Below the pieces are notes generated by a model, which saw nothing but the letters and a program-made list of their open reading frames with translations, ran no database searches and was not told the origin of the DNA. A program made the translations under genes and the position numbers. 29,528 nucleotides of DNA from positions 1-29,528 of the IMG/VR virus record IMGVR_UViG_3300047667_001108. One strand, 5' to 3'. How positions within the stretch are numbered: position 1 is the stretch's first letter; each line of letters starts with the position of its first letter. This DNA comes from a virus. Positions 3,377-24,886 of this stretch are shown here, piece by piece.

Positions 3377-4026
3377 ATACTCACTTTTGGATTTTAAGTG
3401 ACTAATATGAAAATCCTGAACGGCTAATATAGGCTCACAATAAAAAACCCCCAGAACCCTGATCATAGCGACCTTACAAAATGTCTTGAGAAGGCACAAA
3501 CTAACCTTTGTGTTGACGGAACTGACATGTCGCAGTCATCTATGCACTCAGGCTGACACCTGAGAAATGAATAAGCTCTCCTGACCAATTGGAACTTATG
3601 GGTAGTGTATGTGTTATCATAACAGCACATCATGTTCCTGCGTCGTTTAAGTAGAAAGTAAAAAGGTAGCGCGTGACCGCCTTTCCCTGGCTATACAAGG
3701 TTTTTCTGTTATGTTAGTGGTCCGAGTGCGCTCGGGTGGTGACGGTAAAAAACCTGATTCTTAGCCATGCTTAGCTAAATCAGGCTAAGTGTGGCTATTA
3801 GTTCTGGTAAAATATAAGTTTCTTCTAGCTTCGCATCGCTTCGCAATGACACCATAATAATATACATTAATTAATCCGTTTCGATTACAGTATTCGAAGA
3901 ATAGATATGCTGAGAACAGATCGAGACGAAATGGAATGAAGTCGAGATATGTGAATCAACAGATGATCCGTTAGGATCATCCAGACATATGACTGTTATA
4001 TTACGGCTGAGGATGTTCTGAGTGTT
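3377..4026. ncRNA. 650-base gene-free region, candidate structured RNA
   Basis: No credible ORF on either strand, although coding density elsewhere is very high. The stretch lies between convergent genes. It holds many hairpins: GGATTTT/AAAATCC (3389-3416), CACAAA/TTTGTG (3495-3512), CTCAGG/CCTGAG (3547-3564), ATGTGTTA with a CACAT return (3609-3630), a bulged AAAG-GCG/CGC-CTTT (3662-3684), CCGAG/CTCGG with a TGCG loop (3722-3735), the switch-like element 3753-3797, TTCGA/TCGAA (3880-3898) and GATGATCC/GGATCATC with a GTTA loop (3962-3981). No tRNA T-loop and no tmRNA or RNase P signature was seen. It could be a large phage ncRNA (classes such as GOLLD or ROOL are known in phages), a terminator or packaging region, or decayed sequence. 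Strand is unknown. Confidence 0.4.
3753..3797. other. Two mutually exclusive stem-loops (switch-like)
   Basis: Helix 1 pairs CCTGATT (3753-3759) and TAGC (3762-3765) with GCTAAATCAGG (3774-3784), 11 pairs with a 2-base bulge. Helix 2 pairs TAGCCATGCTTAGC (3762-3775) with GCTAAGTGTGGCTA (3784-3797), 14 pairs including two tandem G-U on the + strand, loop TAAATCAG. The two share bases and cannot form together in full; alternatively CTGATT may pair with the helix-2 loop to make a pseudoknot. No U-run follows, so it is not a simple terminator. Confidence 0.55.
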
Positions 4027-4316
4027 TTATCGTTGTTGTGATTTCGCTTGAGGCCTATCAGCTGGTCCATTAATTTTTCCTGGTTGCATTTGAGTCTGGC
4101 GTTGTTTATTAGGACTGTTTGCATCCATTCTTTCTTGCAAAACTTCCATCAATACAGTTCTCTCTTTGAATGTCATGTCAATGACATCACTATATGGCAA
4201 TGGCGCCAATACTGAAAGTTTCATCAGATCTGACATCAAGTCTTTTTCATCTTGTTTATATGTAGCCACCAGCTGCTGGATCTCAGAATAGTCTTTAGTT
4301 AAAGCGAGCTGTTTTC
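4027..4316 (-). CDS. C-terminal extension of gp26-type protein, made by -1 frameshift (gp51-like position)
   Basis: Frame open on the minus strand from the slippery site to 4027. Read alone it could only begin at a GTG (4269, 80 aa), with no convincing Shine-Dalgarno before it. In the -1 frame it continues without a stop from T TTT TTC at 4323-4317, adding 96 residues to the gp26-type protein. The part after 4269 has a helical N-terminal half and a polar C-terminal tail rich in Q, N, K and P. In T4 gene 51 follows gene 26, so this may be its counterpart, but sequence alone does not prove it. I infer an assembly chaperone-like role in baseplate hub or tail initiation. Confidence 0.65.
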
Positions 4317-5141
4317 GAAAAAATTTGAGGGGTCAAATGCTACCTCCACTGTGGCTGTATGTTCACACTTACTACATGTAAAACTCATATCACGTGTTAT
4401 GACTTCCTGACTTAACTCATTTACAGCATCCCGTATTTTTTGATACATTGGTGCAGGTAAATCAGTTAACCATTCTCTAATAAATTCAAGATCTGTTACT
4501 GTAACACCATCTGGCGTAATGATGGATACAATATGCTTGGCTGCAATATTAAATAACAGCTCGCCGCCGCGTTTCATAATCTCACCAAGATTTTGGTTTA
4601 AGGGGGTGCGATCATCACCAGACGCTGCTGAAAATGCTTTGGCAGCACGAACTAATTCAACTTGATAGTTACTCATCATTGTATTGCTTTCACTTGTATG
4701 TGGCCGCAAGTTTATCTTTAATGATTCAATCTCAATTTGATCCACAGCCTCAATTTTCCTAGCATTAGCAATAACACTTGTTAAGTTAATTTCATATGAA
4801 TCATTATGGCTGCATTCTTTACACCCTACACCAACACTCATTATTTCCCCATATGTTGCAATACGCATAGCAATTATAATAACGTCCAAATCTGGGGTGG
4901 GAATGTCTCTGGCGTCAACAATCCCTGGAACAACATGCTCAATAACTTGAAATAAGCTTTCACTGTTCATTAATCCATCTGGATTCTTTAGTCGAATTTC
5001 ATCACTTGCCGTCATGGGCCGCACTTCTAATTCATTATCAGCAGTTAGTTTGGGCGCAACAGGATAATATTTACCAAGGCTTGGTAAAGTGACATATGTG
5101 CCGGGCCGTTGACTATATTTTTTAAGCGGATTTTCTGACAT
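4299..5141 (-). CDS. 26: Baseplate hub/assembly protein, gp26-type
   Basis: A 280-residue protein resembling the T4-type baseplate family to which gp26 belongs. The N-terminus has the PSxGKYYP segment, then a helical region and two Cys pairs, one in the middle (CxxC in VGCKECSH) and one at the C-terminus (CSKC), followed by FDPSNFF; these could hold a zinc. Translation starts at the ATG at 5141, 8 or so bases after AAAGGA; the longer frame to 5222 runs across a late promoter and is rejected. A late promoter on this strand lies at 5197-5189. The end of the gene contains a -1 slippery site giving a second, 371-residue product. The adjacent divergent gene is the probable tape measure. Confidence 0.75.
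   Translation of the reverse strand: MSENPLKKYSQRPGTYVTLPSLGKYYPVAPKLTADNELEVRPMTASDEIRLKNPDGLMNSESLFQVIEHVVPGIVDARDIPTPDLDVIIIAMRIATYGEIMSVGVGCKECSHNDSYEINLTSVIANARKIEAVDQIEIESLKINLRPHTSESNTMMSNYQVELVRAAKAFSAASGDDRTPLNQNLGEIMKRGGELLFNIAAKHIVSIITPDGVTVTDLEFIREWLTDLPAPMYQKIRDAVNELSQEVITRDMSFTCSKCEHTATVEVAFDPSNFFENSSL
4317..4323 (-). promoter_or_regulatory. Programmed -1 ribosomal frameshift site T TTT TTC
   Basis: Read on the minus strand, codons AAT TTT TTC (4325-4317) give the canonical X XXY YYZ heptamer T TTT TTC in the gp26-type frame, six codons before its stop. Slipping back one base continues with CGA AAA CAG and stays open to 4027. A possible stimulatory stem, CAGCT (4311-4307) with AGCTG (4274-4270), begins 5 bases downstream and encloses a CTTT/AAAG hairpin. 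Paired -1 products next to the tape measure gene are a hallmark of tail assembly chaperones. Confidence 0.7.
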
Positions 5142-5157: not shown

Positions 5158-5166
5158 GGATAAATA
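5158..5166 (+). promoter_or_regulatory. Late promoter for the tape measure gene
   Basis: GGATAAATA matches the T4 late -10 element TATAAATA at 7 of 8 positions. It lies 50 bases before the ATG at 5216. It forms one arm of a 10-bp inverted repeat with the opposite-strand late promoter at 5189-5197. Confidence 0.7.
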
Positions 5167-5188: not shown

Positions 5189-5197
5189 TATTTATCC
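5189..5197 (-). promoter_or_regulatory. Late promoter for the gp26-type gene
   Basis: Minus-strand GGATAAATA, 48 bases before the gp26-type ATG at 5141. Together with 5158-5166 it makes two face-to-face late promoters in 40 bases that drive divergent genes, with transcription starts predicted to overlap by about a dozen bases. Confidence 0.7.
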
Positions 5198-5215: not shown

Positions 5216-7540
5216 ATGGCAAATAATTCTGAAATTCGTCTACCAGATGGTAGTGTAGTAAGTGGAAACTGGGCTACAGAAGAAACTCTGGCTGGCGTTA
5301 AACTTATATTAGAAAAAATTCATGGCAAAAAAGGTGCAATTGGCAACGTAAATACACAGGAAGCCAAAGACACCAAAAAAAAATTAGCCATAAACAGTAA
5401 GTATTATAAACAGCGTGAACAACTACGAAGACAATCTGCTAAATCAGAAGAAGCCCATCGAAAAGAAAGAGAAAAGAATTATCCCAAAGTAATCGAAGGA
5501 TTAAAAATTCTAGGCGACACAAGTCGTATAGCTGGTAGAGGTATTGGGAAGATAACATCATCAACCAGCGCCCTTGTTGATGAAATGGATAAACTAGACG
5601 GTAGTGTAAGCGGCGCCAGTAATGCATTTTTTAAAGTCGTGGGTAGCGCAGGCGCCATTGGTACTGCATTCGGTGTGGCCGCTGGCATTATTGATCAATT
5701 CGCAGAGTTTCAAACACAAGCTATCCAAACTGGTTTTAGTTTTAGCCAAGAATTAATTAACACACGTGGTAATATTGCTGAATTAGGTATGAATATGAAG
5801 CAATTGAGTGACATCTTAATTACAAATGGTGAAGCGGTTCGTTCATTAGGTGGTAATGGTGCACAAAGTGCAAACGCATTTATTGATCTGGTATCAAGAA
5901 TAAAAGAAGCAAGCCATAATTTTGGATTGTTTGGTATGACAAGTGAAGAAATTGCAGGGCAAACCGCAGCACGTCTTGATCTGATGCGCAGACAGGGATT
6001 TGTTGGTGATGTTGCTGCTAATGCTACCGCAGAAAGCTTTAGTACACTCAATCAGGAAATTATGGCTTACTCACGTATGACAGGCCGTGAGCGCCGTGAG
6101 ATAATGCGCAATAATATATCTATGCGTGAAGATAGCGCACTATTGGTAGGCGATCTTGCCACCCTTGGACCAAATGCATCCGGTGCCTTTGATGGGTTTA
6201 CGAATGCCATATCTGCAGTATTTGGTGATATAGGAGGTGATGCAATAGATAGCATCTTTACTAATATGATAGAAAGCCAATTGAGCGGATTACAGCGCGT
6301 CACACAGGAACAATACCAAGCCCTTGCGGCAGTACCTGGTTTGGGAGAAGTGCTTACGACTGCGGTCGAAGAGTTAATAGCCAATGTAGATAACCCAGAT
6401 GCGTTACTCAGAGCACAATTGGCATTTTCCAACTCTGCTGGTGAAATTATTCAAGGCGCGATAGAAAATGATGGACTTATTCGATTAACACGGATGATGG
6501 AAGATAACCCAGCTGGAGAAATATTGCGCGCAATTGTAAGCGCTGGGCAATCAGCTACAATATTTTTGGAGACCAGTAATGCAGAACAAGTAGCTGCATT
6601 TGCAGCTACAATGTCCGTTAGTGAGGCAAATTTACTTCGTATGCGTGATCGTATACAAGTTCTACAAAATAGTTTCTCAGCTACGTTAATTCAAGCATTA
6701 GGTTTCGGCCAGCTTGAGGATATGTTGTCTGACGATAACTTTGCGGCAGCACAGTTAGCAATTTCTGAGTTTGGTACCAACCTTTCATCTATACGTGAAT
6801 TTGTAGCTGACTTTGCAGAATTAGTTACATCTGATGGTGGTGGTAGTTTGTCATCAGCATTGGTTGTTGGTATTGCTGCAATGTTTGCAGCACAAGGACT
6901 TGTATCATTAGCAATGGTTGCTGGCATTCGCGGATTGTTTGCAATTGCATCATCTGTATTAGGAGTTAGAACCTTAGCATCGTCAGCAGTAGCACCAGCC
7001 GCCGCAGCGTCAGCAGTAGCACCAGCCTCTGCAGGTTCACGGGTAACCGCAACAGGTGCACGGGTAGCCGCCGGCGCAAGTAAAAAACTGCCAGCAATCG
7101 GTACTGCAATTAGCGCACTATTTGGAATACTTGATAGTGAATACCAAGAGGCTGACTATAATATCCTGTCACGTGGTATACTTGGGGTAACTGAGGGAAT
7201 ACTTGCATTTGGCGACTTTATGTCAGACAGCGTCGTTGACGCTATTCACGGCCCTGGCCACGATAATTATCTGGAGCTTGGCCAGGGATTTAGAGACCTA
7301 ATGCTAGCTGATAGTGCACCTATTCCAGCATTTAATCCAAGCGATCAAAGAGTTTCTACTGGAAACATGGTCATACCTGGCGCAACCCTACAGCCAAATG
7401 GTTCTATGGAAACAGGAATAAGAGATGATAACGCGTTCCGACACAATGTTACCAATGAAGAACTTATGCGCCGTTTAGTAAGGGCTACAGAGGAAACTAC
7501 TAGGCTACAACGGCGCTTGCTCGACAATACTGACGACTGA
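5216..7540 (+). CDS. Probable tail tape measure / hub protein (gp29 analogue)
   Basis: A 774-residue protein, by position and composition the likely tail length ruler that fills the tail tube and starts tube polymerisation on the hub. The N-terminal 100 residues are polar with a Lys/Glu-rich coiled stretch (about 45-85); the middle is long, Ala/Gly/Asn-rich and mostly helical; residues about 545-585 form hydrophobic segments (VVGIAAMFAAQGL, GIRGLFAIASSVLG), as is usual in tape measures; an Ala/Ser/Pro-rich linker follows; the C-terminus is a charged helix. T4 gp29 is 590 residues. It lies beside the frameshifting gp26-type gene, as tape measures lie beside tail chaperones. I do not see direct similarity to gp29, so a different structural role remains possible. 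Confidence 0.6.
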   Translation: MANNSEIRLPDGSVVSGNWATEETLAGVKLILEKIHGKKGAIGNVNTQEAKDTKKKLAINSKYYKQREQLRRQSAKSEEAHRKEREKNYPKVIEGLKILGDTSRIAGRGIGKITSSTSALVDEMDKLDGSVSGASNAFFKVVGSAGAIGTAFGVAAGIIDQFAEFQTQAIQTGFSFSQELINTRGNIAELGMNMKQLSDILITNGEAVRSLGGNGAQSANAFIDLVSRIKEASHNFGLFGMTSEEIAGQTAARLDLMRRQGFVGDVAANATAESFSTLNQEIMAYSRMTGRERREIMRNNISMREDSALLVGDLATLGPNASGAFDGFTNAISAVFGDIGGDAIDSIFTNMIESQLSGLQRVTQEQYQALAAVPGLGEVLTTAVEELIANVDNPDALLRAQLAFSNSAGEIIQGAIENDGLIRLTRMMEDNPAGEILRAIVSAGQSATIFLETSNAEQVAAFAATMSVSEANLLRMRDRIQVLQNSFSATLIQALGFGQLEDMLSDDNFAAAQLAISEFGTNLSSIREFVADFAELVTSDGGGSLSSALVVGIAAMFAAQGLVSLAMVAGIRGLFAIASSVLGVRTLASSAVAPAAAASAVAPASAGSRVTATGARVAAGASKKLPAIGTAISALFGILDSEYQEADYNILSRGILGVTEGILAFGDFMSDSVVDAIHGPGHDNYLELGQGFRDLMLADSAPIPAFNPSDQRVSTGNMVIPGATLQPNGSMETGIRDDNAFRHNVTNEELMRRLVRATEETTRLQRRLLDNTDD

Positions 7541-24863: not shown

Positions 24864-24871
24864 TATTTATC
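24864..24871 (-). promoter_or_regulatory. Late promoter for gp14-gp15-Nudix
   Basis: Minus-strand GATAAATA, 17 bases before the gp14 ATG, which gives a very short leader. With 24879-24886 it forms an 8-bp inverted repeat separated by 7 bases, a back-to-back divergent late promoter pair. Confidence 0.7.
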
Positions 24872-24878
24872 ATGTTAA

Positions 24879-24886
24879 GATAAATA
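24879..24886 (+). promoter_or_regulatory. Late promoter for gp13
   Basis: Plus-strand GATAAATA, 21 bases before the gp13 ATG at 24907; AGGAG lies at 24895-24899 in the short leader. Confidence 0.7.

Follow-up and report, generated by a model that had tools for sequence, protein, structure and literature searches.

Frameshifts in the tail chaperones of T4-like phages have been proposed earlier (Vladimirov, Gautam and Davidson 2022, Virology 566:9-15, cited in PMC12846349 and PMC10885494), and PMC12846349 describes polyT sequences as known -1 signals in the TAC-N genes of these phages. PMC10885494, citing Vladimirov et al. (2022), adds that there are T4-like phages that instead carry two genes, one short and one long. 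The frameshifted T4-like chaperone consists of a gp26-family TAC-N with a poly-T slippery site at its 3' end and a -1 extension giving TAC-NC. Phages lambda (gpG/gpGT) and P2 (E/E+E') also make a short and a long chaperone via a -1 frameshift beside the tape measure gene, which in both follows in the same operon. According to PMC12846349, a -1 frameshift at a poly-T site (GTTTTT) at the TAC-N 3' end is also predicted in the Vandenendeviridae and Andersonviridae.

Here we describe a locus of this kind in the window, meaning the whole stretch of DNA analysed, a 29.5-kb linear fragment comprising positions 1-29,528 of the IMG/VR virus record IMGVR_UViG_3300047667_001108. The window contains T4-superfamily genes for a gp46-like nuclease, a SegE-like GIY-YIG endonuclease, gp20 portal, a prohead protease, the major head protein, tail fibres and the sheath (start only). 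Comparison with phages at the DNA level gave just small matches to cyanophages, annotated as portal. We infer, with a probability of about 0.93, that the locus encodes a T4-superfamily tail assembly chaperone made as a 280-aa TAC-N and, by -1 frameshifting, a 371-aa TAC-NC, the slip, its frequency and the chaperone function being putative. The features of the locus are:

4027-4317, minus strand: putative TAC-C, the -1 frame extension, 96 aa plus stop (open frame, homologues, codon-position bias)
4270-4311, minus strand: candidate stimulatory hairpin, its stem beginning 5 nt past the heptamer, with the 0-frame stop inside
4299-5141, minus strand: putative TAC-N, gp26-type tail assembly chaperone, short product of 280 aa (PF12322, PHROG 150, AF2 model)
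4317-4323, minus strand: slippery heptamer T TTT TTC, inside AAATTTTTTC (in-frame T TTT TTY in relatives)
5159-5166, plus strand: GATAAATA, late-promoter-like element facing the tape measure gene (sequence likeness to T4 late promoters)
5189-5196, minus strand: GATAAATA, late-promoter-like element facing the chaperone gene (sequence likeness to T4 late promoters)
5216-7540, plus strand: tape measure protein candidate, 774 aa, divergent from the chaperone gene (weak PHROG tape-measure match, E 0.14)

Compared with the described T4-like chaperones, the window shares the gp26-family TAC-N, the poly-T site and the -1 extension, but its TAC-C of about 96 aa is only marginally similar to the C-terminal regions of cyanophage and T4 gp51, and its tape measure candidate is divergent. 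The likeness to lambda and P2 is one of arrangement. The Vandenendeviridae and Andersonviridae are different phage families from that of the window, and the likeness there is one of poly-T site position.

The N-domain of the chaperone belongs to the gp26 family. In profile searches the gp26-type product matches PF12322 T4_baseplate (E 5e-21) and PHROG 150 (E 1e-24), and its AF2 model (pLDDT 91) matches T4-like baseplate hub/gp26 models in BFVD with a best E of 9e-26; a fold search of the PDB with TAC-N returned no solved structure at E <= 0.001. On the minus strand the gene ends in ...TCA AAT TTT TTC GAA AAC AGC TCG CTT TAA, the 0-frame stop being the TAA at 4301-4299, which places T TTT TTC at 4323-4317 as the first-pass annotation had read it. 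AAATTTTTTC also includes A AAT TTT, which overlaps the heptamer and likewise fits X XXY YYZ. Past the slip, the -1 frame is open for 96 residues, with its stop ending at 4027; an open run of at least 80 codons has a P of about 0.003-0.009 in shuffled sequence, for any single genome. That this frame has no good start of its own also holds, the sole start listed for it being a GTG at 4269 that falls downstream of conserved -1 residues. TAC-C is probably expressed just as the C-terminus of the 371-aa fusion (275 + 96). Its product had no match in Pfam, none below E 0.1 in PHROG and no significant tblastn match to phages.

Under the proposed mechanism, the majority of ribosomes would terminate at the TAA and release TAC-N, whereas a minority would slip one base back with UUU and UUC of U UUU UUC in the P and A sites, both Phe-tRNAs re-pairing with UUU UUU, and would then follow the -1 frame to 4027 to complete TAC-NC. 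Stimulation of the slip probably comes from the hairpin that starts 5 nt downstream. If lambda gpG/gpGT is a guide, TAC-N would coat the tape measure, and the TAC-C domain may recruit the tube protein or connect the complex in some other way to the tail under assembly.

Two IMG/VR contigs, L002 and L003, with 60 and 57% protein identity to the window across the whole of gp26, retain AAATTTTTTC plus the dual-coded stretch CAGCTCGCTTTAA. In each, the -1 frame specifies a homologue of the window's -1 product (52 and 46% identity, respectively), and the homology runs from the first post-slip codons, ahead of any start codon. Substitutions in the -1 region fall at codon positions in the order 3>1>2 of the -1 frame, the same pattern as in the gp26 frame, and this bias matches coding selection.

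The arrangement extends well beyond these contigs. T TTT TTC with an open -1 frame was present in all seven jumbo-phage genes fetched (Atu_ph07, Phosso, PAC2, Vibrio 2.275.O, 121Q, XbC2 and RaK2), as well as in the cyanophages S-SSM7 and S-RIM8, the KVP40-like PC-Liy1 and Citrobacter phage Ci1, while Stenotrophomonas CM1 has T TTT TTT at the equivalent site. Comparison of gp26/51 boundaries in T4-like relatives, a check proposed in the first-pass annotation, was made by two scans, and the heptamer and open -1 frame were kept throughout both. An in-frame T TTT TTY lies 6-39 nt ahead of the stop in 82/82 gp26-type genes (the window plus 81 other IMG/VR contigs), and an in-frame heptamer with an open -1 frame occurs in 80/80 cyanophage-type contigs; both sets are samples, since each scan took the best-scoring 80 of at least 594 matches. 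All 79 untruncated -1 frames in the 82-gene set span 74-95 codons. No other in-frame T TTT TTY was found within the 82 genes, and their 13 other Phe-Phe pairs never use TTT TTC (0/13), so that conservation acts at the nucleotide level, beyond Phe-Phe. The heptamer and open -1 frame thus occur more often than expected by chance. Whether T4-group relatives share the site had been left as a question; most T4-superfamily branches sampled do, but the slip site is absent from the end of gene 26 in T4, 44RR and AM101, the three T4-proper phages sampled. Vibrio phage SD25 (L016 3019), a distant gp26 relative, is without T TTT TTC and has GTT TTT CGC TAA instead, with an open -1 frame and an ATG overlapping the stop.

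The 5-bp stem (CAGCU/AGCUG) noted in the first-pass annotation does lie 5 nt after the heptamer, but with an unremarkable folding z of -0.64 the window hairpin is no evidence by itself. The corresponding segments of L002 and L003 fold with z of -2.98 and -2.74, the hairpin starting within 1-5 nt of the heptamer in these two relatives. For the 60 nt that follow the slip, the mean folding z across 57-59 non-redundant loci is -1.72, versus +0.10 to -0.46 at four control positions. Together, the conserved heptamer, the open -1 frame and this downstream structure give the central proposal, a -1 frameshift that would yield a tail-chaperone-like pair, strong support. Two further stems lie past the end of the chaperone gene: 3762-3797 forms a strong terminator-like stem of 15 pairs, and at about 3950-3985 the minus strand reads as a hairpin, GATGATCC-TAAC-GGATCATC; similar hairpins were seen by eye after the chaperone gene in L002 and L003.

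The -1 frame might instead be a separate small gene translated by termination-reinitiation from a coupled start near the gp26 stop, as it is annotated in 121Q, XbC2 and PC-Liy1. These three phages do have an overlapping TAATG at the stop, and T4 gene 25 begins likewise after 26. However, the heptamer is found even in relatives with TAATG, and no ATG is present at the gp26 stop in the window, L002 or L003; their first possible -1-frame starts (GTG, TTG and GTG, respectively) differ from one another and lie inside the conserved domain. We therefore consider reinitiation very unlikely.

The T run itself invites two other explanations. Slippage of RNA polymerase rather than the ribosome would be in keeping with the strict conservation of TTTTTT, but the run is mostly just six long, the codon phase T TTT TTC is kept and downstream RNA structure is enriched, all of which make a transcriptional origin more improbable still. 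Transcriptional slippage usually requires longer A/T runs, of about nine or more. A run of six Ts is also a classic site of sequencing or assembly error, and loss or gain of one base could have split a single gene into two frames; this split recurs, with the frame preserved, in finished phage genomes as well as in over 160 independent contigs, which refutes this explanation and leaves its likelihood negligible. Ribosomal frameshifting is thus the preferred reading of the locus.

T4 gp26 belongs to the same family as the N-domain of the window's chaperone. T4 gp51 (L012 4480-5229) is a full-length gp26 paralogue with a C-terminal extension (PF12322, E 4e-52), and this C-terminal part is common with cyanophage 'gp51' (phrog_634, E 1e-23), a pattern to be expected had two genes taken the place of the slip in T4. 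Vladimirov and colleagues reportedly assigned T4 genes 26 and 51 to TAC-N and TAC-NC, and these sequence matches of T4 gp51 agree with that assignment. Whereas the window has a slip site and a -1 extension, T4, 44RR and AM101 lack a slip site where 26 ends; gene 51 is instead separate and divergent, at the head of 51-27-28-29. In cyanophages, the 'gp51 baseplate hub assembly catalyst' (L013 3193-3384 and L014 3232-3369) is annotated as a separate gene and is actually the -1 continuation of gp26 after T TTT TTC. The placement of the window's -1 frame in a gp51 position is therefore apt for cyanophage annotation, in which the -1 tail is named gp51, but not for T4, where 51 is divergent from 26 and a full-length paralogue. 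Between the TAC-C of the window and the T4 and cyanophage gp51 C-terminal regions, hhalign gave P of 0.007 and 0.011, marginal matches of low probability, with an M...ER motif in common.

The product of 5216-7540 is probably a tape measure, judging from indirect features of its sequence and model. Tape measures typically show variable length, helicity and hydrophobic segments. Homologues of 5216-7540 are adjacent and divergent in 73 viral loci, with lengths of 558 to at least 1335 aa; the AF2 model of the 774-aa protein is almost all helix, at low confidence (pLDDT 56.5), and hydrophobic peaks lie near residues 141 and 550. A tape-measure-like gene thus adjoins the chaperone gene, as had been claimed, but on the opposite strand and not downstream in an operon as in lambda. 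Of 59 non-redundant loci, 45 have T4-late-promoter-like elements on the tape-measure strand, 54 on the chaperone strand and 43 on both, whereas control stretches have none. The window as a whole has seven copies of GATAAATA versus 1.9 expected, and a second back-to-back pair, on opposite strands between divergent genes, lies at 24864-24886. On balance we lean towards the view that in this lineage and in jumbo T4-like phages the chaperone and tape measure genes, normally co-transcribed, are divergent and fired from back-to-back late-type promoters, their ratio being set by the paired promoters and the frameshift. If true, this combination would amount to a conserved regulatory alternative by which tail length is controlled.

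With the frameshift already reported for T4-like phages, the window locus is a solid new example and not a new mechanism. Among the T4-superfamily phages sampled, jumbo phages included, the present comparison indicates a tail-chaperone frameshift in nearly all that lie outside the T4 group, and many small genes annotated as 'gp51' or 'hypothetical' after gp26 are probably C-terminal parts of fusions, not genes. Such near-universality fits the two-gene arrangement of T4 (26, 51) as the exception.
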